DNA of 64,000 nt from Rhizophagus irregularis (Eukaryota > Glomeromycota > Glomeromycetes > Glomerales > Glomeraceae): positions 684,501 to 748,500 of the forward strand of contig NC_089456.1 in assembly GCF_026210795.1 (NCBI RefSeq), read 5' to 3'. Under the pieces are notes generated by a model. That model had not been told where the DNA came from. It worked only from the letters and a program-made list of their open reading frames with translations, and did no database searches. Every line of letters begins with the position of its first letter. Position 1 is the first letter of the stretch. Position numbers and translations under genes: made by a program. Below, piece by piece: positions 10,588 through 33,117 of this stretch.

Positions 10588-10698
10588 ATGGCTACAAAGC
10601 GTGGTGAGAAACGAAGAATTGATGATAATGAAAGATTTTCAAAACGTAGTACTGAGGGTAGCGAAGCTGAGAAGCGAGTGAGAATATCCGATGATAGC
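10588..10698 (+). CDS. Accessory gene of the Plavaka element, 5' part of exon 1 (interrupted)
   Basis: ATG at 10588 starts MATKRGEKRRIDDNERF, a Lys/Arg-rich N-terminus that could serve nuclear import. The frame ends at 10698, where the virus-like element begins. The same codons resume after it at 21728, where the five duplicated bases ATAGC recur, and run to a GT donor at 21740. The product is unrecognised. Confidence 0.75.
10694..10698. repeat. Target-site duplication ATAGC, left copy
   Basis: ATAGC lies directly before the element's first base and again at 21728-21732 directly after its last. Five bases fits a retrovirus-like integrase (4-6 bp). A sixth base is ambiguous. Confidence 0.75.
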
Positions 10699-11184
10699 GT
10701 TGTCGGGCTGGTAGTGTGTTACGCTGCGCTCCGCCCACCTCGGCCTCGGCGGCCTCGCAAGGCACTGCATCGCCCCATAGTGCGTGAAATCCTATACATA
10801 CGCGAAACAATATGAAACAAGATGCGAAACATAACAATATAAGCAAAAAAGGATAAAATAAGGGAAAAGAGAGGAAAATAAGAGAGAATCAGAGAGGGTG
10901 TTTCGATGTTTCAGATGTTTCGGCAATTTTGGTAAAAGTCAGGTGAAGACAACCCTCCCAGAAAAAGTTTTGATTTTACCCCCCCAGATCTGAAACTTCT
11001 GAAACATCTGAAACCGATTCAGGATTCCGTTCGTTTTCTTATTGGAGGCAGTGAGATAGCAAATCGAGTAAACAGATAGGTTAATAACCCCTAGAAGGAC
11101 TGTAGAACCGCAGGAGGGTAACCGGGTAGGAGCGCGGATCTTTGGAAAAAATATATTCGGCAATTGAAGATTAGGTAACTATAA
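10699..11184. repeat. Left terminal inverted repeat of the virus-like element
   Basis: Starts GTTGTCGGGCTGGTAGTGTG; its reverse complement matches 21233-21727 almost base for base, with a few substitutions and small length differences. It has a GC-rich outer 80 bp with CTCGGCCTCGGCGGCCTCG and, further in, several copies of GAAAC(A)-TCTGAAAC words that may be protein-binding sites. Confidence 0.92.
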
Positions 11185-11212
11185 ATTAGTACTCGATTTG
11201 ATAGAACAAAAA

Positions 11213-13754
11213 ATGACCACTCAAGCTCAAGTTATCCCCAAGTTCGGTGAACAAACGAAAGCCTTCAGTATCGATGAGCTTAAACGGTTTATTGTCGCTG
11301 CAAAGAGTATGAATGATCTCAATCAAGCCAAGAGGTATCTTTGCAGTTATTTCATTCTCTGTGCAGATCCTCATGGGGTTTTCTGGTGGGACCCGGATAG
11401 TAAAAGTTTGAAACACGTTATTGACAAAAATATTGGTAAACTTATCCGTCCAATCACAAAGGCATTCTACACACAACCTGAACAAGGACCCTCTCAAAAG
11501 ACCGAGTTCAACATCTACAAGTGGTTTATGGTCGAGAATACCGATGTATGTAATGCAACCTGTGATCCCCATAAACAGCGAATCTTCAGATCCTTAACCG
11601 GCCAACTCTATCTAAATATCTTCCCGGGATTCCTCCACGTCTTACGTCCGATATCTACCTTTGAGTCTACAATTCACCTCGCGGTTAAATTTATCTTCTC
11701 TCACATTCAGGATATCTGGTGTTCGGGTGATTGGAATCTCACTGAGTATATCATCAAGTGGTTAGCCGGTGTATCTGCTGAAAGGAAGATGTACTCGATC
11801 CTTTACCTGAAATCTGGACAGGGTTGGGGCAAAGGTATTATAACAGATTTCATTCAGCGCAAGCGTCCTAGGCACTCAACTCGTTTATAAGACCAGCGAT
11901 CCTCAAACGATTCTTGGAAGTTTCAATGGGCAATTACAGGGTAAGGTTCTTCTTCTCCTCGAGGAAATGCCCACGGAAAAAAGCCAGTGGAATAATCTGT
12001 ATCGCTCTTTAAAGGATAAGGTAACGAGTGACATAATAGAAATCCATGAAAAATACAAGACGCCAACACATTACAAAAACTTTATGTCAACTATCGTCCT
12101 AACCAACGAAAATGCTCTCAGAGTGGAGAACGATGATAGGCGCACAGTGTTCTTGGATGTGTCACCATCCCGCAAGGGAGACCTCAACTACTTCAAAAAC
12201 TCGGCTGACACTACGAATACCCAGCGCGCCGAGGAGGCGTTCTATGCTTATTTGAGAGCCATCGCGGATGCTTACCCGGACTTCAATGGAAATCCGCCAC
12301 CTATGACAACATCCAAACAGGAACATATCATCTCAACTCTTCCACCGCTATTCCAATTTATAAAGGACACTTACCTCGTAGTGAAAAATTATATGACCGA
12401 CCTACCTGTTCAAGAATTTTATAGGGTATATACTTCATATTGCGAAACTCATTGCATTTCACCCCTATCAAAGATAAACGCTTCTAGAATTCTATCAAAT
12501 GAGTTGGGTATAAATAGCAAAGTAGTACGCAAGGGTGGAAAAACACCACGGGTTTACAGCATATCCAGGGAGGACTTCTACAAGAAGTTCTTCGGCAAAA
12601 ACTGGATCCACGAAACAGACGAGATAGACATAGAAGGAATCGATATAGAGACTTCTAAAAAACCCGCATCAGACCCCAAAGCCTTGGAGAAGTTCTTGGC
12701 AAATATATATAATCCAGCCAACAATCCACAAGACGTACAAGAGAAACCCGCTGAGGAAAAACCTGCTGAGAAAAAACCCGAACCCGCTGAGGAAAAACCC
12801 GCCGAGGAAAAACCCGCACCTGTAATTCGCAAGACTCCTCCACCGCTTCCACCCAAGCCTGACCACTTAAAAGAACGTCCACAAGAGTTAAGGGAAGAAC
12901 AACCGGATCCCGATGAAGATACTAGTGAGTCAAACACCGATGAACCTATAGATAACTTCTCAGACTGTTATCTATCTGACGAGGAATCAGCTGAGGTTCT
13001 AGTTCCTGAAAAACCGTCTACCCCCGAGCCAGATAACTATGACATCTTAGACGACTTATTATCAGACTCGGATTCTACAACCATGGACTTAACTCCTGAA
13101 CAACAATCCGAGTCTCCCGCAGAATCTTCTGCATCTGTCACTAAGCCTGACCCAGAACCGGCTTCTGAAGAGCAATTTATCCCAGAACCCGACACAGAAC
13201 CAGAAGTCGACCGGGATCCTGAACCAAAGGAAGGCACTCGAGCGCACTGGGCTTGGCATGAAAGACACCGATGGGATCGCAAACCGTGGGTTAAAAATTC
13301 AAAGGACCAGGTCTTCAATGATCTCTACAATACAGGTAAGGAATTATGGGCCAAGTACCAAGACGCGTCAGATGACTATGACTGGGAAATACTCGCGTTT
13401 GAAGTAGAGGAATGTCCCACAACACGTATTGAGGACGAGTACCAGTACTACCTTAGGGAAGTAGTAGACCGCTTCAAGGACTGGATCGAATATAATGGAT
13501 ACTTACCTAAAACACCTAGCCGTAAAGAACTCGCAGATTTAATAAGAATATACAAGGATAATCGTAATGCCGAGATTATTCCCACCCCCTCTGGGTATGA
13601 AACTATGAGGGCAGATAAGGGTAAAGCGCGAGAGATCCCCGAGGAACGTCCAAAGACTAATATGGAACGTGAATGGGAAGCCGCCAATGGAATCATCAAC
13701 GAGTTTGATGATGAGTATTTTGATGAGGTCCGTGATATGATTGACTCCATTTAA
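11213..13754 (+). CDS. Superfamily 3 helicase-like region of the virus-like element
   Basis: The first Met in frame is at 11213 (MTTQAQVIPKF). The N-terminal part has no primase motif I can name. Helicase motifs follow: a P-loop SGQGWGKG near 11813-11836, a Walker B-like strand VLLLLEEM near 11945-11970 and a motif-C/arginine-finger block TNENALRVENDDRRTVFLD near 12100-12160. The helicase domain is followed by a winged-helix-like stretch (YRVYTSYCETHCISPLSK), a Pro/Ala/Glu/Lys repeat (PAEEKPAE) and a long acidic linker. A Trp-rich C-terminal domain (HWAWHERHRWDRKPW) closes it. It resembles viral D5/DUF5906-type replicative helicases. The region does not run in a single frame throughout. Confidence 0.8.
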
Positions 13755-13861
13755 TAAGATAAGTGACGTGTAATTATCTTATATTTTTTTGTCCTAAATT
13801 ATCCTACACTTATTATAAAGAAAAGCTATATTACAATTGAATACAATTCATAGTATATCAA
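13755..13861. promoter_or_regulatory. AT-rich intergenic gap, probable terminator and promoter
   Basis: About 100 bp of strongly AT-rich sequence between two plus-strand genes in an otherwise GC-richer element, with TTATATTTTTTT just after the helicase stop. A role in ending one transcript and starting the next is inferred from position only. Confidence 0.35.
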
Positions 13862-14770
13862 ATGACTCATTCAAAAATTGCACGCGCCTTACCAACACGA
13901 CCTGACATCAAGGAACTCCAGTTTTCTGGCGCCCGCTTTTCCAGAGGAGCAATAGCAAGACTCGGTCAGCGACTCCAATCCCAATATCCAAATTGTAAAT
14001 TCCAGATTTTACTTCCCTATGAAAACTGGAAACCCGGTGGTTGGACATCAGGAAACCAACCAGCTAGCCTTTTCTCACTCTTGGATCACTACGACGAAGC
14101 ACAACTACCGGATGACGCAGACCCTGATTATTTTGAACGATTCATAATTTATGTGAGAGATGCCCCACCGGTTGCAGGAGGTTGCAACGGGGAGCTAAAT
14201 GATTGCCTGTATGAATGCCTGAAAAATATCTACGGCACATTCTCTAAAATGCCAAAGTCAATCGAAAAGCCCGAGTATATCAAAAAGGCATTAGGTCTCA
14301 ATCGCGATGCTCCCATCCCAGTTTCATGCATGGACAAGGTTGAACAACTCGCAGGAAGTCTCGCAATTAATATTGTGGGGGATATTACCCGAATCTCTAA
14401 GAGTAAGTCCGATAGACGTGCGACTCTCATCCTGTCAGAAGGCCATTACTCCCTCGCGTTAAATCCCGGAAGACTCCACTCCAGTAAATTAGATAAAAAG
14501 CGTAATTTACCCATTGTATACCATGAAGATGGGACCAATAATGTAGTCACAATATACAACGGCAAAACGGTTAAGTCTTGTACAATTGCGCAGTTTCAAA
14601 AGACTAAGAATTCCAAGAGTTCCTTTATCTCTGTTGAGAAAAACCGTAAAACGGGAATATATGAAACTCTTGAAGAAGCATATCAGAGAATCCACGAGGA
14701 GCGGAACGCAATTATTCACACAAAGACTGGATATGAAAATTATGGACGGAGATTCATACGAGGATACTAG
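13862..14770 (+). CDS. Possible OTU-like cysteine protease of the virus-like element
   Basis: A 302-residue open frame. Residues 107-120 read GCNGELNDCLYECL and residues 192-198 SEGHYSL. A D-C-x-x-x-C helix start with a later G-H-Y strand resembles OTU-like cysteine proteases, with C115 as nucleophile and H195 as general base. The N-terminal 100 residues have no motif I recognise. If correct, it could process viral proteins or remove ubiquitin. The match is by eye, and an alternative is a structural role with the Cys/His binding metal. Its last 38 bp overlap the next gene. Confidence 0.45.
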   Translation: MTHSKIARALPTRPDIKELQFSGARFSRGAIARLGQRLQSQYPNCKFQILLPYENWKPGGWTSGNQPASLFSLLDHYDEAQLPDDADPDYFERFIIYVRDAPPVAGGCNGELNDCLYECLKNIYGTFSKMPKSIEKPEYIKKALGLNRDAPIPVSCMDKVEQLAGSLAINIVGDITRISKSKSDRRATLILSEGHYSLALNPGRLHSSKLDKKRNLPIVYHEDGTNNVVTIYNGKTVKSCTIAQFQKTKNSKSSFISVEKNRKTGIYETLEEAYQRIHEERNAIIHTKTGYENYGRRFIRGY

Positions 14771-15059
14771 GAAGTGGCTTCTTGAACAGCTTATAGCCAT
14801 TGGATGTGACAGTGGGGAAATTGCCTTATATCAGTTCTTACGGAATACATACCCGGATGGTATTGACGAACCCTTTACTACATTCTATGAAAACTATGTA
14901 AGTCATGTAAGAAATCCGATGACTAAGAACTTTGCTTCTCGAGCCTTAGGAGCTATTGGGTTAAAAGCTAGGATGCTACGGATTGACTTCGAAGGACGTA
15001 AAAAAAGTGCCATGATTCTTAGGGCTTCTGCAGAAGAACTTCGCGAGATGGGTTGCTAA
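14733..15059 (+). CDS. Winged-helix-like small protein
   Basis: The chosen start is the Met at 14733 (MKIMDGDSYEDTRKW) because earlier Mets lie in the coding sequence of the upstream gene in another frame. The segment PFTTFYENYVSHVRNPMTKN ... SRALGAIGLKARM resembles VQEFYRVYTSYCETHCISPL ... SRILSNELGINSK in the helicase protein. It is therefore probably a free-standing copy of the helicase's C-terminal DNA-binding domain. It ends 13 bp from the convergent gene at 15073. The function (DNA binding in replication) is inferred. Confidence 0.55.
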   Translation: MKIMDGDSYEDTRKWLLEQLIAIGCDSGEIALYQFLRNTYPDGIDEPFTTFYENYVSHVRNPMTKNFASRALGAIGLKARMLRIDFEGRKKSAMILRASAEELREMGC

Positions 15060-15072
15060 AGCAACCAGATTC

Positions 15073-15438
15073 TTACAAAATACTATTGATCCCTACTCGT
15101 AATGCTCGACGGTCCATATGACCCTTAGAAAAGATCTGTAAAAGGACCCCGATGCCTTCTATTAATTTTTTATTATCCAAAGGGTGACTAGACTTCAGGA
15201 CTTCATATCGGGAGAATAACTCCTTTACGGTCTCAGGTTTTGGAATTTCAGTCTTCGTGGTCCTATCCCGTACTTTTGCTAAGAATTTTTGGAAGTCTGA
15301 TCCCAGGGTTTTACCAGATAGTCCGTAGGCTTCCCGAAAGACGTACTTAATCCAGGTATCTGCGTTCTTAGCTATAATACCAGATACGAGGAGGTGTTTT
15401 TCTCTCTTTAGGCGATGGATATTCCCGAGCAAACTCAA
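15073..15438 (-). CDS. Unrecognised frame behind the packaging ATPase
   Basis: A 121-residue frame with helical, Lys-rich sequence (NIHRLKREKHLLVSGIIAKN ... RVGINSIL). It overlaps the end of the ATPase frame at 15368-15438 and has no ATG at its beginning, so it is probably expressed together with the ATPase and not on its own. No family recognised. Confidence 0.45.
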   Translation of the reverse strand: MSLLGNIHRLKREKHLLVSGIIAKNADTWIKYVFREAYGLSGKTLGSDFQKFLAKVRDRTTKTEIPKPETVKELFSRYEVLKSSHPLDNKKLIEGIGVLLQIFSKGHMDRRALRVGINSIL

Positions 15439-16297
15439 TTAGCTGGGAGGACTTTTTTGCTTCAGCTACAGCTTTCTGGCCATAAGGACTAAACTTTGAT
15501 CGAACTGGGTTCAAACTCGGATCGAACGGGGATTGAACTGAGTTCGAACTAGGATCGAACGGGGATTGAACTGAGTTCGAACTAGGATCGAACTGAGATT
15601 GATCAGTGATCAAACTGAGACTAGTATCCCATCTAACCCGAATGGATAACGGATCGCTCTTGGATCTTCTAAGATCAAATACTATAAATTCGCGTTGCAG
15701 AGTAAGGTCATCGATTACTGGAGCTAGTGACTCCGATTCTTCTGTATACTGGCGGATGATCCTCTTAGTATCGGTCAAACTTCCGTGACCTCCATGTAGG
15801 GAAATATAATTCACATTTTCACGAATAGCCTTGGGAATGGTAAAGAATCTTTGGGCCACATAAATACATGAAATATTTTTGTGTCGTCCGTGTGTAAAAA
15901 ATCCAGTGATGAGATCCTGGGTTTTTTTAGGCGCATCCATCAAATCCTCGAAGATTACCACAGTAGCCTGGGTGGAGTTGAAGTCCTTAACATTTGGAAT
16001 CTCACTATGGGATACTGCGGTAAACGGAATTTCTTCTTCTTTGAAAAAATCACGTACGACTGCCCACTTCGGTTCATCGAGGTATCTGCCAACTAGAATT
16101 ACCGCATCACATAATATGTACCTTTCGCCATCCTCCTTTGCCTTCTTGTCTCCCATTAACAAATTAATAATCATAGTTGTCTTACCCGAGTCAGAACTTC
16201 CTGCTACGGCAAGACGGAAAGGCCATGATGGGGCAAACTCATTACCCCGTCTCGAGTCGGTCGTGTACTCGTCCAAATTGTATACATAAAGATCCAT
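15368..16297 (-). CDS. A32/FtsK-HerA-type DNA-packaging ATPase
   Basis: A 309-residue frame starting MDLYVYNLDEY. Walker A GSSDSGKTT is at residues 33-41 and Walker B VVIFED at 113-118, with the polar YVAQR strand near 146-150 in the sensor position. The preceding FAPSWPFRLAV strand and the spacing match the A32-like genome-packaging ATPases of Polintons and large DNA viruses. The C-terminal tail contains three copies of an 11-residue unit (SPFDPSSNSVQ and variants; 15490-15600) and may be a flexible linker. A packaging ATPase implies that DNA is loaded into a preformed shell. The Gag-like product is the only obvious candidate shell protein here. A clear homologue is in the 27.86-34.3 kb remnant. 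Confidence 0.85.
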   Translation of the reverse strand: MDLYVYNLDEYTTDSRRGNEFAPSWPFRLAVAGSSDSGKTTMIINLLMGDKKAKEDGERYILCDAVILVGRYLDEPKWAVVRDFFKEEEIPFTAVSHSEIPNVKDFNSTQATVVIFEDLMDAPKKTQDLITGFFTHGRHKNISCIYVAQRFFTIPKAIRENVNYISLHGGHGSLTDTKRIIRQYTEESESLAPVIDDLTLQREFIVFDLRRSKSDPLSIRVRWDTSLSLITDQSQFDPSSNSVQSPFDPSSNSVQSPFDPSLNPVRSKFSPYGQKAVAEAKKSSQLIEFAREYPSPKERKTPPRIWYYS

Positions 16298-16396
16298 TTG
16301 AATTTTATTCTGATTTAGTTTAAATATGATGTCGACCCAATTGCAATTTATACTCCTTCAGAGCCTACTGGACCGCCTCCTAGGGATTTGCGTGAT

Positions 16397-17032
16397 ATGA
16401 ATAATATACCATTAGTTGCGGTAATTAAGGATCTAACAGATTTTTTAACTGTCAGTGATCGCATGGTTGTTAATCGAGATGTACAAAATGCAAACCATCG
16501 TCTTAAACATGCTCTTAATTTATTAATTCATCGCTGTAGAGAAACATACGAAGAACGCGATATATTAAAAGCAGAACGTAATCGATCTCGAAAAGAACGT
16601 GATGAATTACAAGATGAACTCGAGGTTCAAACGGGTTTGTTAGGTCTTACACAAGATGAGCTAAATAACGTACAAGATACTATTACTAGTTTAGAAGCTA
16701 ATTTGGCTGAATTGGAACGTGAGTTTGGTGGTATGCGGACGACTAATCGTCGTTTTCAGCAGCAATATAATCTTATGAGAGGAGAACGTAATAGAGCTAT
16801 AGGTGAACGTAATAGAGCTATAGGCGAGCGTGATGCGGCACGAAATCGGCTTGTATATGCCAATAATCGGGTTCTTTTTGGAATTCAGACATTGGGACGT
16901 CTTAGGAATCGACTTTTCCAACAAATAGCCGCTCTGCGTATCCAAGTACAATGGTTTCGGATCAGACAATTGAACCTTCCTCCACCTCCTTTCAACCATC
17001 CACAAAATACGATATGGCTGCCGTTGGTATAG
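16397..17032 (+). CDS. Coiled-coil protein upstream of the Gag-like gene
   Basis: The first ATG in this frame is at 16397 (MNNIPLVAVIKD); the frame is open from a stop just before 16322. Residues about 50-180 are a charged heptad-rich coiled coil (ERDILKAERNRSRKERDEL), with a short direct repeat GERNRAI x2. The end overlaps the Gag-like gene by about 80 bp in another frame. No enzymatic motif is visible. It may be a scaffold or structural protein; function unknown. Confidence 0.6.
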   Translation: MNNIPLVAVIKDLTDFLTVSDRMVVNRDVQNANHRLKHALNLLIHRCRETYEERDILKAERNRSRKERDELQDELEVQTGLLGLTQDELNNVQDTITSLEANLAELEREFGGMRTTNRRFQQQYNLMRGERNRAIGERNRAIGERDAARNRLVYANNRVLFGIQTLGRLRNRLFQQIAALRIQVQWFRIRQLNLPPPPFNHPQNTIWLPLV

Positions 17033-18511
17033 CTGCCCCTATATTTCATGGTCGGGAAGATGAAGATCTTAATCTTTTTATTGATAACTTTTTAGGGTAT
17101 ATTAATACCGTTGGTATTGATCCATTGGACGATGCCGGTGCACCTCCGGGTCGGGTGCGAGCGATGGGGGTTCTTCGTAGCTGTATGAGAGATGAAGCGG
17201 CGAGGTGGTTTGATGCAGAACTTACTGGAAAAAATTGGGAACTCTCGAATATTCGGTTAGTGGCTACTGCAAATGGTGGAGCCGGCTGCTACTCGCCGAG
17301 CGTTCAGAGCTTTAGCTGTTCCTGAGGTTGCTAATGGATTACATGTTGGTACTTACTTACCCGGGTCTGATGTTGATGCATATTCAAGGATTTTAGCTAA
17401 TGCGGCGAGAACCGTTGGAGAAACATTTTTCCCATCACGCGCTGATATCGTTAGAACGAATTTTAAAGTTGAAGAGCAGTGGAGGCATGCGGGCGGACGT
17501 CCTACTAATCAACCCGTTAATGGGTTGGGAAATCATGGAGGTCCATTTAATGCTGCTGTCCAGAATCAACCAATAGTCTTACAGGAGATTCTTCTGGATC
17601 AAGCATTTATGCATATGCGTACAAATTTTCCAACCGTCGTGGAAGAAAGACTTCAAATACAATTTAGTAACCTTTACCAGGAACAAGGTGAACCTGTTCG
17701 ATCTTACTATAAGCGAGTTGAGAGGGCTGGGGATATTGTAGGATATAATCGAATTATGGTTACTGACCAGTTCTATAGAGGACTTTTGCCGGAAAACGTT
17801 ATTGAAGCTTCCAGAATCGGGGCGGCACCTCTTAATACATTAATCGATAGATTGAGTGATCTTGAGCGACGAAAGGGTGAAATGTTCTATGGATTACAAA
17901 GGCGTCAGGGTATTGAAAAGGCTAAAAAAGAGGAATTGGCTGGCTATACTCATCCCGCGACTCCACACGAAGGTGCTGTAATACAAAGGTCGACAGACGT
18001 TATTACTCAAGAACGATTACAAGAATTGCTCAAGGCACAAGCCGAGGAACTTACCAAGAATTTCCAGGCACAATTTAAACAATTACAAGCATCTAAGCCA
18101 GTTCGTAAACCACCGGTCTATAGACAACAGATTAAACCTGTTCGGCCAAAGCCACGGCCACGTGTTGTTCAGGATCATCAGGATCCTGATTGGGATGATG
18201 GTTATGTAGATCATGATTTTGGTGATGACCCTGGTGACCCTGATGCTCCTGAGTGGACTAGTGAGGATGATCAACATGTTATTGATCTTATTATGGGATA
18301 TGAGACGTCTAAAAGATTTCCAAAGAGACTTCAGAAGGCTAAAGATAGACGCGATGATCTGGAATTAGCCCGAGCAATGAGAAACCTCGATCTTAATGAT
18401 GATGCTATGGATATTGATACTAATACCGCGAGTTTTGATGACTTGAAAATTGTTCCCGATGAGGAAGGTGGTTTTCGGATTTGTGCGGTTCGAAGTACAA
18501 AAAAAAAGTAA
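16951..18511 (+). CDS. Gag-like (capsid-type) protein region
   Basis: The N-terminal block, about 75 residues, reads AAPIFHGREDEDLNLFIDN, then GRVRAMGVLRSCMRDEAARW, typical of the retrotransposon Gag/Ty3-type capsid N-domain (FxG..D...W). Later come AGGRPTNQPVN, RTNFPTVVEERLQ and YYKRVERAG ... FYRGLLPENV, the capsid C-domain-like part. A basic, Pro-rich and then acidic tail follows; I see no CCHC knuckle. The same landmarks (AGGRPTN-PVN, FPTVEE) recur in the frame at 33118-34296. The region is not in one single frame (about one break). Role: presumed shell protein. Confidence 0.75.
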
Positions 18512-19230
18512 ACTCGGATAAGGGTGTAAGTATCTCGAAACTTCTTAAATCTGTTCCAAAAAAATCAGTTAAAATGACTCCTATTAAGATTCCTGTGAAG
18601 GTTACTAGTAGTAAGCCCACACTTATAAAAGCCGTCACCAAAAATGATTCATTAAGTTTATTAAGGTCTGCAGATTTTAGAAAATTACTCCGCGAGATTC
18701 TTCGGGAAGAATTAAAGTCTGCTCGTAAAAGTACGGAGATTCCGGAAGACCTAGTTGAGGAAAAACAAGAAGAGGATATCAGGGAAGATGACCCGATGGA
18801 TATTGACGTAGCTCGTTTGGAGAATACTAAAGATCTTTTAGCGCTGGATGGGAAGGTCAATGGGATAGCAATTCAGTGTTTAGCAGACACTTGTGCTAAC
18901 GCGTCTTTTATTCAGAGGGAAGCCGCTGAAGAATTAGGGTTGGATATCGACAAGAGTATTACACATAACATATCCGGCACTCCGGGTTCTGGTAGGACAT
19001 TTGGCATGGTAAAAGGTGTGTCAATCAAACTAACCCCTGATTGTGTAATCACTGAGAATCTCGCGGTTTTAAGCAATTACAAGCATAGGGAGATTGGATT
19101 GAGCCGGACGTGTCTGAAACGTTACAATTATGATGTCCATGAATCACGTGAACATATCGCCCTTACTTGTAATGAGAAGAATGTTTTTATCCCGATAGTT
19201 TCTGATGTGAATCGAGGAGACAAAAAATAG
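18481..19230 (+). CDS. Retropepsin-like aspartic protease
   Basis: After a basic N-terminal region, residues about 129-145 read IAIQCLADTCANASFI, the retropepsin flap-hydrophobic-D-T-(G/A/C)-A-(S/N) signature with DTC instead of DTG. AAEELGLD follows, then a second half containing VKGVSIKLTP and EIGLSRTCLKRY. The first ATG in the frame is at 18574. The frame overlaps the end of the Gag-like frame by 31 bp, an arrangement that in retroelements goes with Gag-protease read-through. It ends 14 bp from the convergent integrase. The likely job is maturation of the Gag-like protein. Confidence 0.7.
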   Translation: MCGSKYKKKVNSDKGVSISKLLKSVPKKSVKMTPIKIPVKVTSSKPTLIKAVTKNDSLSLLRSADFRKLLREILREELKSARKSTEIPEDLVEEKQEEDIREDDPMDIDVARLENTKDLLALDGKVNGIAIQCLADTCANASFIQREAAEELGLDIDKSITHNISGTPGSGRTFGMVKGVSIKLTPDCVITENLAVLSNYKHREIGLSRTCLKRYNYDVHESREHIALTCNEKNVFIPIVSDVNRGDKK

Positions 19231-19244
19231 GGAATATTTATTTT

Positions 19245-20335
19245 TTATTCCCAAAACTTGCGGATTAAGGTAGGGACATCCTCCTCCAACCGGTCAGCGG
19301 GTTCCCAAGTGGCTTCGGTATCTGGGTATCGTTCCCACTCGACTAGATACTGGTCTTGACCCTTCCTGATGCGATGCCGGAGTATCCGCTCAGGTACAAA
19401 TCTTTCGGGTTGCCCTCTTATCACGGAGTCAGGTGGGGGATGTTCATTTTCTGGAACAATCTGCAACTCTTTTCGGGTGTACGCACATCTGGATACACCT
19501 AGACGCCCGTGTGGTCCATCAAGAAGATACGTAGGAGGCTGTTCGGGTGAGAGGATCATTTTTTTGATGACACGGATATTGGGATTCCATCTTATGTCAC
19601 CTGTACGAAATTTTCCATGGAGTTTATTCCCGAGTACTGAAATAGGTTCGTCTAACTTGACTCGGACATGTGTTCCTTCAGAGAGAAGTTCTGTCTTTTT
19701 TGACACTTTGGGTGACCCTGTCGGAATGTCTGGGGGATTTCTCTGCCAGATTTCATCTATTTTATTAACTACATCACGGAAATCTTCTGACCATTCCACG
19801 GATGTCACCCCGGTCTTCAACTCCTGTGCCACCATTCGTTTTAGGAGAGGTTCCTGGATTGCTTGGATGGCTCGTTCAGCGTACGATTGCTGTTTGTGTC
19901 TTCCTGGTTCGCCGAACCTCATCATTACCCCTAGGCTGTTCAGGAAAAAATCACGTACCTGGTCGTTAGTGAATTCTGATCCGGAGTCTGTCTCCAGTCT
20001 GTGTGTTGGTGGCTTAATACGATTTCTTCTGTAGATTTTGACAAACCCGTTTAGAACCCTATTTGCAGTCTTATCCTTTAGGGGTTCTGCATCGACTTGT
20101 TTACCCGCGACTTCCACCACTACGAGGAAATAGTGGAATCCTTTGGGGTCGACTGGCATCTCTGCAAGATCTGCCTGATGTGTTGCATTTGGTTTCCATA
20201 CAACTACTCGTGGACGCTCTGATGACTTCTCCTTTAGGGGCTTTTTATATAGGTTGTAGTGCTCCTTCCTTTTAGAATTCGTGCCGGTACTCTGGAGAGA
20301 TTGTAGTATTTGTAGTAATTCTCTAAATGCGACAT
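19245..20335 (-). CDS. DDE integrase with C-terminal chromodomain
   Basis: The first Met at 20159 (MPVDPKGFHYF) is too late: the frame stays open up to about 20335 and the upstream part carries the first catalytic Asp (THQADLAEM). The second Asp is in RLETDSGSEF and the Glu in KQQSYAERAI, so the DDE triad of the rve/retrovirus-like fold is complete. An SH3-like domain follows (LSEGTHVRVKL ... GKFRTGDIRW). The last 50 residues form a chromodomain: ERILRHRIRKGQDQYLVEWE...ATWEPADRL. The chromodomain probably steers integration to modified histones. It is divergent from, and overlaps, the zinc-ribbon gene. No intact HHCC zinc finger is visible before the core. Confidence 0.85.
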
Positions 20336-20700
20336 ATTATGACAAATTAAAGGAAAGATTTCAGACTTCAAATCTTAAGATGACACGATTTTACTGCCTA
20401 AAGTGTAAGAAGGAAACCGAGACTGCTAGTGAAATACAAGATATGACCACAAATGGCCGCTATCATTTACATGGTGACTGTGTAGTTTGTGGGATGCATA
20501 AGAATACTTTTACTGGGATAGACTGGGTTATCAAAAAGAAAACCAAGGAGAAGAAAAAAGAAACTGCGGCTAAAAGACATCAGACGGCGTACAATCGGCA
20601 ATGCAAAAAACTCGGGCAGAAAATCTTAGATTCTGATGACACGTGTAAGCAGTGTATTGATAAATGCCTTAAAGAGGCAAAAAAGAGGAAGACGGATTAG
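20281..20700 (+). CDS. Viral-type zinc-ribbon protein (DUF5679-like)
   Basis: The ATG at 20380 starts MTRFYCLKCKKETETA ... NGRYHLHGDCVVCGMHKNTF, a two-CxxC ribbon of the kind common in large DNA viruses. The frame stays open back to 20281 with an additional CSIC pair but no earlier ATG. A Lys-rich C-terminal half with CKQCIDKC could bind a second metal or nucleic acid. It ends 9 bp before the convergent gene at 20710. A nucleic-acid-binding or transcription role is inferred. Confidence 0.65.
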   Translation: MPVLWRDCSICSNSLNATYYDKLKERFQTSNLKMTRFYCLKCKKETETASEIQDMTTNGRYHLHGDCVVCGMHKNTFTGIDWVIKKKTKEKKKETAAKRHQTAYNRQCKKLGQKILDSDDTCKQCIDKCLKEAKKRKTD

Positions 20701-20709
20701 TACCGCCTT

Positions 20710-21222
20710 CTAAAAGTATTCCTCATCATCTGAGTCATCGAGAGATACCTCTCCATCATCTGATTCATCATCCGAGTCGTCAGGAGTGCGACCTTCCTTA
20801 AGCAATTGGATGTTGTACGTTATTTGAGTCCATTTCTCCCAGTCGGACTCTTGCGTTATAAAGCCGCATCTGAGGAGTGCTCTTTCTATTACTACCATCC
20901 CTGCAAACCTGGTGTATTTTTTCTGATCGGCTTCATTGAAATTGTCAATGGCTTCCTTGTAGTAGTCTACTGCCTGTTTGTATACCTCTTCGGCTTCTTT
21001 ATGCCGCTTCCACAACTCGGCTTTACAACAGTTATACCAGAGTCTGTTAATCTTGAGATGTTTTCTGAATTCTTTAACCGGAAGGTTTCTGACCATCTCT
21101 GCTACTATGTCCGGGTCATTGAGGGGTGATGCCCGAATTTGGATCCATTTACGGATTCCATAGATGTCTACAAGATCAAGCCTGAGGTCTGCAAGAGAAG
21201 TGGCGGCGTGTAAGTTTATCAT
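20710..21222 (-). CDS. Unrecognised protein with acidic tail
   Basis: 170 residues starting MINLHAATSLADLRLDL just inside the right inverted repeat. Its centre is helical (EEVYKQAVDYYKEAIDNF) and Trp/Tyr-rich; the C-terminus is Asp/Ser/Glu-rich (DDSDDESDDGE). No known domain seen. Its position as the outermost right gene suggests an accessory or structural role. Confidence 0.6.
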   Translation of the reverse strand: MINLHAATSLADLRLDLVDIYGIRKWIQIRASPLNDPDIVAEMVRNLPVKEFRKHLKINRLWYNCCKAELWKRHKEAEEVYKQAVDYYKEAIDNFNEADQKKYTRFAGMVVIERALLRCGFITQESDWEKWTQITYNIQLLKEGRTPDDSDDESDDGEVSLDDSDDEEYF

Positions 21223-21232
21223 TGTATGTTAC

Positions 21233-21727
21233 TTATAGTTACCTAATCTTCAATTGCCGAATATATTTTTTCCAAAGATCCGCGCTCCTACCCGGTTACC
21301 CTCCTGCTGGCTTCTACAGTTTTCTACCCGGGGCTTATTAACCTATCTCCGTTTTTTACTCGATTTGCTATCTCACCGCCTCCAATAAGAAAACGAACGG
21401 AATCCTGAATCGGTTTCAGATGTTTCAGAAGTTTCGGATCTGGGGGGGTAAAATCAAAACTTTTTCTGGGAGGGTTGTCTTCACCTGACTTTTACCAAAA
21501 TTGCCGAAACATCTGAAACATCGAAACACCCTCTCTGATTCTCTCTTATTTTCCTCTCTTTTCCCTTATTTTATCCTTTTTTGCTTATATTGTTATGTTT
21601 CAGATCTTGTTTCATATTGTTTCAGATGTATAGGGATTTCCCGCCCCACGGAGGGGCGATGTAGGTACTGCGAGGCCGCGAGGCCGAGGTGGGTGAGCGC
21701 AGCGAGACACACTACCAGCCCGACGAC
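21233..21727. repeat. Right terminal inverted repeat of the virus-like element
   Basis: Inverse of 10699-11184, ending CCAGCCCGACGAC. It differs from the left copy by a few small insertions and substitutions, mostly in the GC-rich outer part and near 21300-21350. Confidence 0.92.
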
Positions 21728-23039
21728 ATAGCGTTGATGGTATATATGACATGATACGTATCATATTCTTTATAAAAGAAATTATATAATATATAGTTAA
21801 ATTATATTTTATTGTTAAAGTTAATAAAAAAACAATAGAAAAACTATTAAGAACCAATTCGCAGATAATTTCTAAGCTTGAAGTTCTTATCACCGGACAA
21901 AAAAATCTCGAAACCCGTCTCTCGGAGATAGAAAAAAAGCTCAACGATAATAACAAAAATAATAATAATACAATAGATCCGGAGTATGTAAAGGTAATAA
22001 AGATGAATATTATTTAATGTAAACCTGAAATGCTAACCTCGTTTGATTAGGAGCTCGTTAAGAAGGTGTCGAAAATTTTATTTGAAAATTTTGTTTATCC
22101 TTCGCAAGACGAGTACAAACTCGCTACCGAAAAATATTTAAAAGACGAAAATCTGGAATTTATGCGCCAGTTCAAAAAAAATCAATGGATTATTTTTTTC
22201 GAAAAAAAAATTGCCCCGACTGTAAGTTAAAGCAATTATGAATTTTATTAAATTTCATACTAACATTTTTTTTTAATAGTTAGTACAACAACATAGAAGC
22301 ATACGAGGAACGTTCACGTCTAGAGTTAAAGATGTTATGTATTCTGTTTTCGAAGCGACTGGGCATAAATTACCGTCTATTAACACTCAGGCTAGTCCGT
22401 CAAAGATTCAGGAATGGAAGAGTAAGGCGGAAATGAAAAGATGTTACAACAACCTATTTAAAAAGGTTAAAGATGGGCAACCTACGACATATATATCGCT
22501 GATAATTGATAAGTTGCGAAAAGAAAATAAAAATCCTTCAAAAACACAAATAGCGTATGCGATTAGCATATGTGAAACGTACTTAAATCCTAATAATCAA
22601 AACATTCAAATGAGCGAAAGTATAATGAAGTCGAAGATAATCAACAACTTAGTAAGTTTTTAATTTACAATTTGCAAAATGTGAATTATTTGAATTACAG
22701 TTTATTTATTTATTTATTGATTTTTAGCAAAAGTTGGAAAATAGGGATAAATTTACACATTCGGACGATGATTCTCATGATGGTAATGATGTAGACGATG
22801 GTGGTGATAGAGCAGCTGATGATAGAGCAGGTGCGGCTGATGATGGTGTGACTAACGATGGTAGGCCTAACGATGGTGCGGCTAATGATGATGCGGCCAA
22901 CGATGGTGCGGCTAACGATGGTGTGGCCAATGATGGCATAGCTGACGATGATATACTTTCTATTGACTCTTATAACACGGAGGAGGAAGGTCGGTATGTA
23001 AATAGTTTATTAGAGAATTATGGGTTGCATAGGAAATAA
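21728..23039 (+). CDS. Accessory gene of the Plavaka element, rest of exon 1 and exons 2-5
   Basis: Exon 1 resumes at 21728 (duplicated ATAGC) and ends at 21739. Exons 2-5 are 21821-21993, 22051-22221, 22280-22651 and 22728-23039, all with GT-AG borders and consistent phase. The product has a coiled coil (KLEVLITGQKNLETRLSEIE), a middle part with YSVFEATGHKLPS and AEMKRCYNNLFKKV, and an acidic Asp/Ala/Asn repeat tail (DGAANDDAANDGAAND). The domain is unrecognised. Genes in the same divergent position exist at 44493-45669 and 56114-57061, so a helper role in transposition (end binding or regulation) is inferred. Confidence 0.75.
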
Positions 23040-27369: not shown

Positions 27370-27857
27370 ACAGAAAATGAAGTATTATTTATTGAAATAT
27401 TTTGAAATATTACGAAATATTAAGTTGTGTAAAATCACAGAATATTACGAATCATCAAATTATGGAACATTACGCATCATAGAATTTCGAAATATTTTAA
27501 AAAGTTGCGAAGTATTATGCAGTAAAATTACGGAATATTACGAATCGTAAAATTACGAAGCCTTGCATACAGTAATATTTCGAAATATTTTAAAAAGTTA
27601 CAAAATATTACGCTTACGCAAACTTGCAGCGGGTCTGAAAACTTACGAAATATTATGTAAAATTACGAAATATTGCGAACCGCAAAATTACGAAATATTA
27701 CAAATCATAAAATTACGAAGCTTTGCATATCGTAATATTTCGAAATATTTTAAAAAGTTACAAAATATTACGCTTACGCAAACTTGCGGCGGGTCTGGAA
27801 GCTTACGAAATATTATGATGTGTAAACTTGCGCAACTTTTTGCACTATATAATTTCC
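27370..27857. repeat. TACG-rich repeat with internal duplication
   Basis: Dense in ACGAAATATT and TTACG words. A block of about 160 bp (AAAATTACGAAGC(C/T)TTGCAT ... GCGGGTCTG) occurs at about 27545 and again at about 27710. The right end, read leftwards, gives CATCAGGAAATTATATAG, matching the repeat end at 3999. Confidence 0.75.
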
Positions 27858-28790
27858 TGATGCTGTGGTTCATCAATACCTATTGGACGATTATATTTTA
27901 CCGATATTTTGGAATATATCTGCTTAAGTTTTGTGGCATCATTAGGACTCATTCCAATTAGCCGGGTTGGAGTATCATTCATGTTATTAACAATTCTTCT
28001 TGCAAATCGTTCATATTCTCTACAGCGTTCACCAGTAGGCAGAAGAAACTCTACCGAATACTGATTTTTAAAAACTCTATATTCGAATAATCCGGCATAA
28101 TGATCAACCATAGCAAAGCTTGTATGTCTAAAACGTGCTATAATTCTTCGGATTTCAACACTATGTTCGTCCATTAATAAAGTCACATATCCCATAAACT
28201 CTGTACTTTTATCACATTGTAGTTTTTGAGGCCAGTTGAGAGGCTTATCAGAATTATCATATATACTCTTAAATGCTTCCGCAACTTCCTCACTGCTCTT
28301 TGATATTAAAAAAACGAAATCTTTATATCTAGTCATGCAGTCTATAACCAATAGTACATAGTAATATATTGGAACATCATCTAGTAAATTTATATCCACA
28401 TATTCATCATATGGTATTTCGATTAAATCACATTAGTGCACAGTATTTGGCTTTGTGATTTTAGAGTAACTGGCATAAGGTATATGCTTTGATGAAGGAC
28501 GAAAAATTTGATACATTGCTTAGCCCTCAAGCCATTTTTTTACATCAATAAATGGAAAGCTATAGCTGGCTTTTTTACATGCATCCCACAATCCCTTAAC
28601 ATTTTGATACAGACCTTCAGGACGATAATATAGTTTTTGCAAGGCAAGATGCTAGTCTAAATTATGAGCTTTTTGGGAATCGATATTAATCGTAGGTGTT
28701 TGTTTTACTATGATTAGGTCTAGCTCTCGTGCTTTTTGAGGATCGATATAAATAACCGGTCTTTCGGCTTAGCGTTTTTCCATTTCAATT
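27858..28790 (-). pseudogene. Integrase remnant
   Basis: Core strand YYYVLLVIDCMTRY and later RRIIARFRHTSFAMVDHYAG and NNMNDTPTRLIGMSPNDA identify an rve-type integrase of virus-like elements. The N-terminal part has LYYRPEGLYQNVKG and DVKKWLEG. It is broken in several places and cut by the TACG-rich repeat before its C-terminal domain. Confidence 0.7.
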
Positions 28791-29531
28791 TTTATAATTA
28801 CGCAAAAAAGCTGGTATCTATTAAGTCATATTCTACCTATTAGCTTGAACATTTTTTTCCCTGCGCTTATGCCTAGCCTCTATTTCCTTCTGCAGGTTTA
28901 GGGGAGTGTCAAACCTTAGGCGGATTGCAAGAGGATCATCTTCTGACTTAGTGAGATCAAATACGACAAACTCACCTTTTCGAAGGTAATTATTAATAAC
29001 CATAGATGCATTTTTTACATCATCAGTATAGCGTCTAATAATCTTGGAAATATCTTCATGCGAGCTACCTGAGTTAAAAAGTACTAAGTGTGAGCTGTTT
29101 TCACGAATAAATATAGGGATTTTGTGGTATTTTTGCGCTACATATATACATGAAATATTCTGATGTCACCTATTCCCAAAAAATTGGCTGATTTGATTTT
29201 GTATATATTCTGGGCTAGACATACATCCTCAAAAACAATCACTGTGCTTTGTTCTGGTGAAAATGCTCTAACACTAGGAATTTTTTCTGGCGATATATAG
29301 CTAAATCGTATATTCTCATAGTAAGGCGCTTTTGGATCTTTTGAAATTATGCCATATATATATCTTACAAATGTCCACTTCGGCTTATCAGGATGATAAC
29401 CGCAAACCATCGAATCATCACATGCAATATATCTAAAGCCATACAAAGTGCCTTTTGGCCCTTTCTTACTTTTACATATGCATTCAGCTTTAGTACCAAG
29501 AAAAAGATTTCCCAAGATATTAGTCTTACCT

Positions 29532-29751
29532 AAGGTTGCTTGCCGAAACCTTCTTAATAACTGCCAAAACCTATACGGAAAATGCTGAAACTATATTAAA
29601 TCATATTAAAAATCCTGCCGAAACTTTGCCGAAATGCCGAAACTCCCATTTGCCGAAACTGCTGAAACTCTGCCGAAACTATAGTAAACATATAGTAAAA
29701 TCTTGCCGAAATTTATCGCAGGATTTTGGAGAGGTTTTGGCAAGCAACCTT
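29532..29751. mobile_element. MITE with 10-bp target duplication (Mutator-like)
   Basis: Ends AAGGTTGCTTGCC and inverse GGCAAGCAACCTT; flanked by AGTCTTACCT at 29522-29531 and 29752-29761. A 9-11 bp duplication is typical of Mutator-like elements. The interior is filled with TGCCGAAACT words. 220 bp, non-coding. Confidence 0.8.
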
Positions 29752-29771
29752 AGTCTTACCTGATCCACTCA

Positions 29772-30050
29772 CACTGGTAAAAAAATGGTCTATCCTACAC
29801 ATATCCTACACATATCTTACATATATCGGGTACTCAAAATGTAGAAAATCATACACAAATAATACACATATCATACACATATCGGGTACTTATATATATA
29901 GTATACCTATCAGGTATCTGATATATGTATGATATATATATTAGTACCCGATATGTGTATGATATGTGTATTATTTGTGTATGATTTTCTACATTTTAAG
30001 TACCCAATATGTGTAAGATATGTGTAGGATAAATCATTTTTTTACCAGTG
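29772..30050. mobile_element. CACTGG-ended MITE, copy 2 (CACTA-like)
   Basis: Same ends and body as 2535-2829, with a different centre; flanked by TCA on both sides (3-bp duplication). It lies 20 bp from the Mutator-like MITE. Confidence 0.85.
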
Positions 30051-30196
30051 TCATTCCAATGACTGGCATTCTGAAAGGCCATGATGGACTTGCAGAATGA
30101 GATTGAATTTGGGATGATTCGTGCTTTGTGGTCTCATCCATATCCATAAGGCAAAGTTTCATAGGAGGTAGTCCTGTCTTTTGGTTCTTCTACGTA

Positions 30197-30895
30197 TCAG
30201 ATCGGAAATCCATAACTCTGATTTCTATTTAAGGGTATTTTATAGTTCAGAATATTTTTTTCTTCATTGTAAGATGAATATAGACGAGAGAATACGCACC
30301 TTAAAATGTATATGATTAGTAATACTATTATGAAGATGATTGCATGCTGAAAAAATAAGGAATAAGGCAATTCTGAGGTTATTTTGAGGCTAGTGATTTC
30401 GTTACCTTTCTCCAGTCCTTTATCACCTCCAATCGCTTCATTTTGCTTAGATTCGCTGAATGTTTTTGAAATATGCTCTAATAAAAGAGAATTAGTTTCT
30501 TGAAGAAGAGAATCTTTCTCTATCACTGCCTTTTGTGCTAAAAGTAAATCATCTCTCACCTGCATTAATTCATCCTTTTTTTTGGCCAGTGTATCTTCTA
30601 ACTCCGTATTTGCCAATTCTAAACTAATATTTTTATCAGATAGTTTTATGTATTCCAGTTCAGATTTACGCTTAAGAAAATCCATCTCTGATAATTTCTT
30701 TTGTACCAAAGAAACATCCTGCTCTAATTCTTCTATTCTTGATTGGAGAGCTTGTATCTCTTCTAATTTTGTAGCGATCTCGCTCTTAGTACTTACAAGA
30801 GAAATCTCTTTTTGATTAATTTTATTTTTGAATTCTCTCACCTCATCTTCAAGCTGACATACACGCTCCAAAAAACTCTCATTATTTTTTATCAA
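30197..30895 (-). CDS. Coiled-coil protein with C-terminal membrane anchor, in the remnant
   Basis: A 232-residue frame: residues about 5-150 are a long heptad-rich coiled coil (CQLEDEVREFKNKINQKEI, SRIEELEQDV). A single hydrophobic segment follows near residues 187-205 (HAIIFIIVLLIIYILRCVF), then a short Tyr/Asn-rich end. It is open throughout, and a few codons of similar sequence precede it. It is placed between the ATPase and retropepsin remnants. The element at 10699-21727 has a coiled-coil gene near Gag but no membrane segment. Function unknown. Confidence 0.55.
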   Translation of the reverse strand: MIKNNESFLERVCQLEDEVREFKNKINQKEISLVSTKSEIATKLEEIQALQSRIEELEQDVSLVQKKLSEMDFLKRKSELEYIKLSDKNISLELANTELEDTLAKKKDELMQVRDDLLLAQKAVIEKDSLLQETNSLLLEHISKTFSESKQNEAIGGDKGLEKGNEITSLKITSELPYSLFFQHAIIFIIVLLIIYILRCVFSRLYSSYNEEKNILNYKIPLNRNQSYGFPI

Positions 30896-31440
30896 AAGAT
30901 TATTTCTAGTGCCAAGTTGAATACCTGAGCTTAAAGCGATATCTAGATCATATTTTAAACGTTAGTTCTTAAGCTCTGTTCAGCTAGATGGATATCGATT
31001 GAATGGCAAATCTCCAAGTTTATTGCCAGATACCAAGGGTGCCCATTATTTATTTCATTTATCGTATGTATATTTGCCATATGAATTTATTTGATGGCAA
31101 AGTTTTTTATGATTTTTTTTTTTCCTGATGGCTATCAGAGAAATTATCATTCATATGTATATTTTTTTTTGAATATGGAAAAAAGGAGTTCAGAATCAAA
31201 CCAATATCAAACTAATAAAAGACCAATAACAAACTAGTTTAAAACAAATATTATATTTAAAGTATATATATCCTAAACCTATTTTTTATTTGATTATAGT
31301 ACACTACACTGTAAAGAAAGCAAACTACATATATGTAATAAACCAATGCCAGACTAATGTTAGACTAATGTCAGACCAATATCAAATAAATTTTCTACAA
31401 GTTTTTTATTAGTATTATACAGATTTATTACTAGCAAACT

Positions 31441-31720
31441 ATGAGCAAAAAACAAATAACCTATATTCGTAAATTTCTTAGATCAGATGCCTGACGCTTG
31501 TCATCTGAAGCTATTGAAGAAATTAGAAATGCTTAGGATAATATTCCAGATGCTCAGCGTATTATGTGTAAAAAGCATCGTATAGGATCAACAACATATT
31601 AAAAAATAATTGATAATAAGAGGCCTCCTAAACCTATTGAGGAATGGTGCAGAATCATAGAATCTGTCAGCATCTCTGACCAGATTTCAGAAAATAATCA
31701 GGAATCTTTACATGATACTA
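31441..31720 (+). pseudogene. Small broken reading frame
   Basis: ATG at 31441 begins MSKKQITYIRKFLRSDA and coding-like sequence continues (EEIRNA, DAQRIMCKKHRIGS, KPIEEWCRIIESV), with several stops. No family recognised. The plus strand makes it opposite to the rest of the remnant. Confidence 0.35.
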
Positions 31721-32090
31721 AAGATGTAATATGTAATTATTTTTAGAAGGTTATAAAGTTGCAACTATTACAACATACATACAACACTTTTGTTGTAATT
31801 ACAACACAATATTATAATTATTATATAGTATTATAATTACTACTAGTATTGTAATTATTATATAGTGTTGTAATTATTTCCAATTATATAAATATGTATT
31901 ATTATATATTAATTATTTCTTTTATGATGATATTTGTTCTATAAAAACTTATTTTTGTAATTTTTATTTTTCAAAAAGGAAATTTTTGAAAAATCATAAG
32001 TGTTGTAATATTACAACACTTTAACTTTAAAAGTAGCAACCCTTACTATTACAACACAAGGTAGTAATTATCAATTACATACTACATCTT
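31721..32090. mobile_element. MITE with TA target duplication
   Basis: Ends AAGATGTAATATGTAATTA and inverse (AATTACATACTACATCTT); TA at 31719-31720 and 32091-32092 fits a Tc1/mariner-type insertion. The inside is rich in GTGTTGTAATTA words and AT runs. Non-coding. Confidence 0.75.
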
Positions 32091-32219
32091 TAATATTACC
32101 TGCATTTAATACCATGTCAAGCCATCTCTCAGTTTTTAATAGTTGCTCTTCAAGCTTTACGCACTTTTTTTTAAGTCCTCTTCACTATTTGGGCTAGAGG
32201 AGTTGGAAGATGTTTGGTC

Positions 32220-32731
32220 CTAATCTTTTTTTGGCAGATTTTTGACTACCGGAGCCTTGCTAAAGGTTGGGATAATATATGCCTTTCCATGTAACTTTAT
32301 GCGAAACTGGTTTTTATTTGGATCGGAAACGCCTTGAACCTTTCGAATGTTTGATATACCAAAAAATAGCATTGGTTCTATTTCACCATTATCAATACGA
32401 ACAAAATTTCCAATAACTGTGACCGCCTTATCTTCTTTATTCTTCAAAGTAACTGGCACGTCTGTATACCATCCTAATGAATCGGTGATATGCTTGGAAT
32501 TGCCCTTTATAGCAAAATTAGATGGTTTATCAGCCTTCCATCCAAGCGCCTTGATTGCTGGTCATTTATACCACTGAACTCACTGGCGGTATCTAAAAAA
32601 GATTCGGAAATAATTAAGTCATTTATATTAGCATTCAGATATTGCAACCACTCATCTGATTCTTTCGATTCCTCCTCCTGAGCCTTTCGAGATAAGTACA
32701 TTTTTCGTATCAGTGGTGAGAGCTTAGACAA
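32220..32731 (-). pseudogene. Retropepsin-like remnant
   Basis: A strand-D-T-A-S block (ISESFLDTASEF) near 32605 and a second-half strand MLFFGISNIRKVQG near 32365 resemble the retropepsin-like protein at 18481-19230. Not in one frame. Confidence 0.55.
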
Positions 32732-32805
32732 TAGCTAATCATACGTTTCAGGTTGGCTAGATTCTAGGGGTAAGATTGCATTAGTATCACTGGCCAACTT
32801 ATCAT

Positions 32806-33069
32806 TTACCTGTTTTTTTTTTCTGGTGCATAATACCATCCATTTTTTACTTTGTCATAATCATTTTCCTCATTATCTGAATCTGGAGGTGTATATTGGG
32901 GCTGTGTAGATGGAAGTTGAGGATAGTAACATTGAGTAAAATTGGATTTAGCTACAGAATTTAACCTTAGGCAATTGTTTTTCTTATGCCCTTCCTGTCC
33001 ACAATTACTGCAATAAAAAGGCTTTCGAGATTGATCATTAAGTGATATCCTACCAAAATTAGATGTCAT
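32806..33069 (-). pseudogene. CCHC zinc-knuckle part of the Gag region
   Basis: CSNCGQEGHKKNNC is a perfect C-x2-C-x4-H-x4-C retroviral-type knuckle, followed by a Tyr/Pro/Asp-rich tail. It lies directly downstream of the Gag-like frame. The younger element's Gag-like region has no such knuckle. Confidence 0.7.
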
Positions 33070-33117
33070 CTGACTAATTTCATCTATTTTTGATTCTAAT
33101 CTATCGATTCTAGATAA

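Follow-up and report, generated by a model that had tools for sequence, protein, structure and literature searches.

Polinton-like elements of Rhizophagus irregularis carry a Gag-like protein and a retropepsin beside a packaging-type ATPase

Introduction

What, if anything, encloses the DNA of a mobile element that pairs the replication and packaging genes of DNA viruses with a Gag-like protein and a retropepsin? The question is raised by an element at positions 10699-21727 of a 64-kb stretch of the genome of the arbuscular mycorrhizal fungus Rhizophagus irregularis (hereafter the window; C28:684501-748500 in the 146.7-Mb genome of 32 contigs that we searched). A first-pass annotation, made from the letters of the window, had described it as a DNA element with a Gag-derived shell and no recognisable polymerase, possibly of an undescribed lineage. 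Polintons of this fungus were reportedly first described in Repbase. It has been reported, under the species name Glomus intraradices, that their major capsid protein (MCP) is not detectable and that they have turned into transposons (PMC7805220). The lineage can therefore be undescribed only in its Gag part: Polinton-like elements of R. irregularis were already known, and the novelty lies in the Gag, or replaced shell, module. In the passages of the open-access literature that we searched, Gag is not described for any Polinton-type element.

Results

Gag-like and retropepsin genes share a unit with a packaging-type ATPase

The element is bounded by a 486-bp left (10699..11184, + strand) and a 495-bp right (21233..21727, - strand) terminal inverted repeat, which in self-comparison pair as blocks of 269 nt (99%), 75 nt (100%) and 33 nt (91%), and it lies between two copies of the 5-bp target-site duplication ATAGC (10694..10698 and 21728..21732). 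The inverted ends of about 490 bp and the duplication described earlier were thus borne out, as was the presence in one unit of an SF3 helicase, an A32 ATPase, a zinc ribbon and a retropepsin. The helicase, of D5/SF3 type, is split here into an N-terminal part with the Walker A region recognised by eye (11198..11890, +) and a C-terminal part (11967..13754, +; PF19263 (DUF5906), E 4.1e-6; weak Pox_D5, E 0.024; PHROG DNA primase, E 8.3e-7). The A32-type packaging ATPase (15368..16297, -) matched Pox_A32 (PF04665, E 6.7e-11) and a PHROG terminase large subunit (E 1.6e-8); its C-terminal part, which aligns to ATPase residues 297-407, lies out of frame with the remainder (15073..15438, -). The retropepsin-type aspartic protease with the motif DTC (18481..19230, +; Asp_protease_2 PF13650, E 2e-7) is full length relative to its relatives, and the zinc-ribbon-like protein (DUF5679; 20281..20700, +) matched PF18930 (E 9.7e-19). 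The DDE integrase with its C-terminal chromodomain (19245..20159, -) matched Chromo (E 2.9e-16) and rve (E 4e-6, below the Pfam cut-off in the window copy; above it in loci L018 and L038). Its earlier description as complete held for the catalytic D, D and E, which by eye all lie in the open frame that runs upstream of 20159, but not for the protein start: set against a relative of 376 aa, the frame from stop to stop covers residues 35-376, and the first ~34 residues are not in frame.

The Gag-like protein consists in the window of an N-terminal part from a conserved ATG (17014..17325, +) and a main part (17273..18511, +), the frame being broken at ~17.3 kb. It was assigned by eye, and the window copy itself gave the assignment no Pfam support; relatives strengthened it. 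Their Gag gave sub-threshold Retrotrans_gag matches (E 0.023 and 0.0038), precomputed PF03732 matches were found on 5 of 96 homologues of the Gag of a diverged lineage (lineage B, below), and predicted Gag folds matched retroviral (CA), PEG10 and Arc capsid domains, with weak E-values and a consistent family. Against a viral fold library the best match of the Gag model was an unnamed entry (E 0.041), and the first five matches included ORF1 of a fungal metavirus and two plant-virus coat proteins (E 0.31 and 0.85) that we take to be caulimoviral. A sequence search of the PDB with Gag returned no capsid match.

The end of Gag reads C-A9-G and then a stop (18498..18511, +), and the open frame of the protease is -1 to that of Gag. 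The window-type subfamily A, a second subfamily, A2, and lineage B all retain the tract and this -1 arrangement, although their stop codons differ (TAA, TAG and TGA, respectively). Among copies that include the junction, this pattern was present in 9 of 9 A copies (eight with nine A's, C17 with ten), in both A2 copies and in three of four B copies, L039 departing from it. Within the 64-kb window, which holds 46 A-runs of nine or more on the two strands together, C-A9-G occurs once per strand, and stop letters (TAA/TAG/TGA) follow the tract only at the end of Gag. The junction is arranged as for a retroviral gag-pro frameshift, or else for slippage during transcription; RNA structure 3' of the tract showed nothing unusual. 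At the other end of the gene, the Gag ATG in A and A2 lies 16 nt before the stop of a coiled-coil ORF (open reading frame) that overlaps the Gag start (16388..17032, +, in the window), and in the lineage-B locus L037 coiled coil and Gag form a single ORF of 699 aa.

To the extent that candidates were scored (101 of 239 for Gag, 128 of 418 for the ATPase), the genome contains at least 102 Gag matches, 73-100% identical to the window type in subfamily A and 51-57% in A2, and at least 133 ATPase matches. The element end together with the helicase start matched at least 41 sites, and these counts of end and Gag matches led us to reject a chance assembly of the gene set. Among the matches listed, the ATPase lay within 4 kb of Gag in 91 of 98 merged loci, always on the opposite strand, with gaps of 966-2,578 bp (median 1,066). 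At five of the seven remaining Gag loci (C2, C18, C24, C25 and C28) a partnerless ATPase was found 5.5-15.3 kb away on the contig of the Gag locus, in the expected order and strand, as if these wide pairs had been interrupted by later insertions; the loci on C10 and C11 had no partner among the matches listed. Seen from the other gene, 91 of 119 listed ATPase loci had an A or A2 Gag within 4 kb. Of the remaining 28, nine are distant (41-45% identical, lineages B and C), with a Gag that the query does not reach, and 19 are of A/A2 type (58-99%); many of these 19 are fragments, and they include the five partnerless ATPases named above. At C24:2522147-2539589 an A2 Gag-ATPase pair sits between a Gag and an ATPase of type A, themselves 15 kb apart; one element has probably inserted into another. 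The internal stop is absent from 44 of the 102 listed Gag matches.

Exact 5-bp duplications were found in seven of the eight copies with both ends (the window, C26, C2, C16, C9, C24 and C17-A2); in the eighth, C17-A, four of five bases match. The register was set by the shared GTCGTCGG terminus, from which the left terminus of C16 differs by one base. Given the co-occurrence of Gag and ATPase and the 5-bp duplications around copies, we conclude that the gene set moves as one unit. Taken together, these results support the view that this DNA element has Gag and retropepsin as regular components alongside its packaging-type ATPase. It has been previously reported that rve integrases typically give 6-bp duplications (PMC12220804); since the 6-bp target-site duplication typical of Polintons was replaced here by one of 5 bp, we call the element Polinton-like and not a Polinton in the strict sense. 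The terminal inverted repeats of two A2 copies (588 bp and 461 bp) are 99.66% and 99.78% identical, and these two insertions are therefore young. Mavericks have been listed among the recently expanded, partly low-methylated elements of R. irregularis (PMC8647823). In the C2 and C16 copies (L013 and L015), left-end-like sequence lies within the right inverted repeat and replaces the right-most stretch of the window, apparently by terminal exchange.

A family-B DNA polymerase domain is deleted from the window copy

At window position ~14706, with aligned sequence to either side, six other copies (C17, C26, C2, C16, C1 and C9) carry extra DNA, 4.07-4.17 kb in five of them and 8.8 kb in C1; measured against the C17 copy, the window has lost 4,172 bp at this junction. 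The extra DNA of C17 encodes a family-B DNA polymerase (PolB; PF03175, E 3.3e-7), and an A2 copy has an uninterrupted 630-aa PolB ORF (L033:2960-4849, - strand; PF03175, E 7.5e-8). The window ORF at 13862..14770 (+) corresponds to the first ~281 residues of this protein, its last codons coming from beyond the deletion junction, and we rejected our reading by eye of a separate OTU-like cysteine protease there. The absence of a polymerase noted in the first-pass annotation was thus correct for the domain in the window copy; the idea of a polymerase-free lineage failed on the PolB matches in relatives (PF03175 and PF00136), a finding named beforehand as one that would refute it. With these matches the lineage is Polinton-like. 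By eye, PolB motif A reads DxTSLYPS and motif C reads HTDGF. The usual PolB motif C is DTD, so activity of this polymerase is not certain. Two polymerase-region pieces of the C2 copy gave no PolB match in the Pfam scan, and C26 has only short ORFs in the region.

Helicases are uninterrupted in A2 (824 aa in L033, 865 aa in L035; PF19263, E 4e-19 and 1.4e-17). By eye, these proteins (L033:4927-7398 and L035:4665-7259) have the C-terminal half in common and N-terminal halves that look unrelated, which suggests that N-terminal halves may have been swapped between elements by domain exchange.

Selection and diverged lineages

We compared A with A2 pairwise by the NG86 method, using few copies (seven Gag and eight ATPase ORFs, and only two A2 copies); this was not a tree-based test. 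The ratio of nonsynonymous to synonymous divergence (dN/dS) was 0.05-0.10 for the ATPase, 0.06-0.08 for the integrase, 0.13-0.17 for the protease, 0.36-0.43 for Gag and 0.54-0.59 for the coiled-coil protein, with the caveat that dS approaches 0.9 (Gag 0.86-0.97, ATPase 0.61-0.96, integrase 0.51-0.70, protease 0.52-0.61, coiled coil 0.65-0.69). Between the subfamilies dN is below dS for Gag, protease, ATPase and integrase, so that these four are conserved as proteins. Within subfamily A some ratios were high on tiny counts, up to 1.12 for the protease, 0.92 for the coiled coil and 0.76 for Gag. As their dS values are similar, Gag and ATPase diverged over a similar time, Gag changing faster, as capsids often do.

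Lineage B (loci L036-L040) has an ATPase 43-45% identical to that of the window. Its PolB matched PF00136 (E 1.2e-23, L037) and its integrase rve (E 9.3e-9, L038). Its Gag is 30% identical to A2 Gag over 281 columns (E 2e-36), and a CCHC knuckle below cut-off (E 0.0019) is a separate ORF in L037 and in line with Gag in L038. The aspartyl protease match was weak (E 0.015); across 140 aligned columns the protein shares 28% identity with the protease of the window (E 3e-13). No helicase and no inverted ends were identified in the lineage-B stretches examined. Named homologues of B Gag came from Rhizophagus, Funneliformis, Glomus, Gigaspora, Dentiscutata and Cetraspora (all 96 matches listed), and those of B ATPase additionally from Diversispora (120 of 134 matches listed); many homologues of both are unnamed environmental sequences. 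The named genera all belong to Glomeromycotina. A lineage-B coiled-coil protein (L037:4617-5669) has by eye a C-terminal membrane segment (weak transmembrane match, E 2.3e-4, below cut-off) and is possibly a membrane-attachment or envelope protein. In lineage C (L041) we noted by eye a coiled-coil protein with a Gag-like tail beside ATPase and integrase; Pfam gave no Gag match.

Searches for a jelly-roll capsid, other polymerases and viral relatives

No double or single jelly-roll capsid was recognised in Pfam scans of the ORFs, small proteins not being folded. Genome searches with PF04451 and PF16903 were silent, as were their controls, and carry no inference on the capsid. In two A2 copies, the main ORFs that do not overlap either belong to known families or seem, from size and helicity judged by eye, too short or helical for a double jelly roll. 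Pfam scans gave no match to an adenain-type cysteine protease, the retropepsin being present instead. No reverse transcriptase or RNase H matched in the ORFs scanned, the insertion in the C9 copy lying outside the scan, and there are no long direct terminal repeats, the ends of the window element being inverted. LINE-like ORFs were seen by eye within the additional insert of C1 (one, at L018 1-1977) and outside inverted repeats at L032 1-3403. Viral contigs held no relative of A2 Gag, B Gag or B ATPase in a search that reaches close relatives only and may exclude records near the window genome. An earlier study, which searched five strains of R. irregularis for giant-virus markers, reported no MCP, A32 or D5 (PMC10640383); in contrast, A32-type matches were plentiful here and D5-type helicases were present in the copies scanned.

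Further features of the element and its surroundings

Helicase, ATPase and Gag are split in the window copy, which seems to be a dead descendant of a family that is functional. An ORF at 14586..15059 (+) holds the C-terminal part of a ~190-aa protein whose first part was lost in the deletion; the ORF gave no Pfam match of weight. The acidic-tailed protein at 20710..21222 (-) had a weak PHROG match (E 0.0019) to a family of unknown function. Repeats of 11 bp run through 15487-15618 in the ATPase tail and may explain why ATPase ORFs measure 400, 411 and 429 aa in other copies. In the A2 locus L033 we noted, both below cut-off, a 2-cysteine adaptor-like protein (1050-1631, -; PF08793, E 8.1e-4) and an F-box-like protein (1850-2266, -; E 0.0088).

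Window 27845-34296 (-) contains another element of this general kind, which is decayed and for which no inverted ends were found. It comprises fragments of an integrase (27845-28399; 36% identical to lineage C, E 5e-32) and of an A32 ATPase (29138-29515; 39%, E 2e-24), a coiled-coil or membrane-anchor protein (30197-30895; weak, E 0.003) and a Gag-like ORF (33118-34296; 26% identical to lineage B Gag, E 5e-23), all on the - strand; inside it lies a 109-nt inverted repeat (29802-30031; 94%, 12-nt spacer).

Discussion

We are confident that these loci represent a lineage of Polinton-like elements that carries a retroviral-type Gag and a retropepsin in one unit. Like Polintons/Mavericks, they have long inverted repeats, PolB (in relatives), an rve integrase and an A32-type ATPase; unlike them, they have Gag and retropepsin where a jelly-roll capsid and an adenain-type protease are expected, a D5-type helicase, and a 5-bp in place of a 6-bp duplication. 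With Polinton-like viruses and virophages they share a D5/SF3-type helicase, the A32 ATPase and integrated copies with inverted ends, and they differ in Gag and retropepsin and in having no recognised jelly-roll capsid. Features of Ty3-type long-terminal-repeat (LTR) elements (Metaviridae) and retroviruses recur here: a Gag of predicted capsid fold, the sub-threshold CCHC knuckle of lineage B, a retropepsin in the -1 frame, a chromodomain DDE integrase and 5-bp duplications. In contrast to those elements, the ORFs scanned hold no reverse transcriptase or RNase H, the ends are inverted and not direct, and PolB, helicase and packaging ATPase take their place. Caulimoviridae have a Gag-type coat protein round a DNA genome, as is proposed here; they replicate by reverse transcription and are not known to encode PolB, an integrase or an A32 ATPase.

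On this gene content, the jelly-roll capsid and adenain-type protease would have been functionally replaced by Gag and retropepsin, and we lean, by a little, towards Gag being the shell of a DNA-containing particle. This is favoured because ATPase and protease persist together under constraint, in contrast to the nine MCP-less Polintons of an earlier survey, which are described as having lost both (PMC4028283). More tentatively, and with somewhat less than even confidence, we propose that an integrating double-stranded DNA virus lineage of arbuscular mycorrhizal fungi took up Gag, retropepsin and expression of the frameshift type in place of a jelly-roll shell and an adenain protease, and that an A32 motor packs its DNA into the Gag shell. 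This would be an exchange of capsids between two viral realms. In a cycle with a Gag shell, helicase and PolB would copy the element into linear DNA, and the integrase would insert the linear copies; slippage on the A9 tract would yield some Gag-protease, and the retropepsin would mature Gag. Gag may then assemble a particle round the DNA genome, the A32 ATPase helping to load it, and particles could carry the element between nuclei or hyphae; we infer these steps of assembly, packaging and transmission from the gene set.

Several points weigh against a Gag shell round DNA. Gag shells are not known to need a motor. By dN/dS, Gag is less constrained than the enzymes, and spread was seen within genomes only, the searches of viral contigs with A2 Gag, B Gag and B ATPase giving no close relative. 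The Polintons of R. irregularis are moreover regarded as capsid losers with a transposon lifestyle (PMC7805220). The last three of these points favour a capsid-less transposon, in which Gag and protease would coat element DNA or RNA inside the cell, for transport or copy-number control and without a virion, and the ATPase would move DNA for a different purpose. We consider this alternative unlikely, though well worth weighing: ATPase and maturation-type protease are constrained here as if particle assembly matters, and the nine MCP-less Polintons have neither (PMC4028283). Less probable still is a shell from elsewhere, either a jelly-roll protein too diverged for recognition or a shell supplied by a helper virus, Gag then being an accessory or an inner protein; capsid profiles were silent in genome and controls alike and small proteins were not folded, whereas the main A2 ORFs match families or seem by eye too short or helical for a double jelly roll. 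MCPs of Polinton-like viruses diverge strongly, which would suit this alternative. A Ty3-type LTR element that landed in an ordinary Polinton and was copied along is highly improbable and, as a recent event, is rejected: although Gag, retropepsin and the chromodomain integrase are each of Ty3 type, the scanned ORFs hold no reverse transcriptase, the integrase lies on the strand opposite Gag-protease, Gag and protease are under constraint, the ATPase accompanies Gag at 91 of 98 listed loci, and lineage B repeats the set of Gag, protease, ATPase, integrase and PolB, which contradicts the inserted element that had been considered from the start. Ancient capture from a Ty3-type element is the likely source of the Gag and protease genes.

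A Gag shell is directly testable, because copies with an open Gag frame (44 of the 102 listed) exist in a culturable model fungus. The Polintons of R. irregularis, cited as capsid losers (PMC7805220), may instead have exchanged their capsid, and the fact that this mixture of genes travels as a unit suggests that a DNA virus can exchange its shell for one of retroviral type. If Gag does enclose the DNA of the element, virion fold and genome type would be less tied than realm-level classification assumes, a DNA replicon could make use of a retroviral Gag/protease module, and a lineage of DNA viruses that is invisible to capsid-based searches may exist in fungi.

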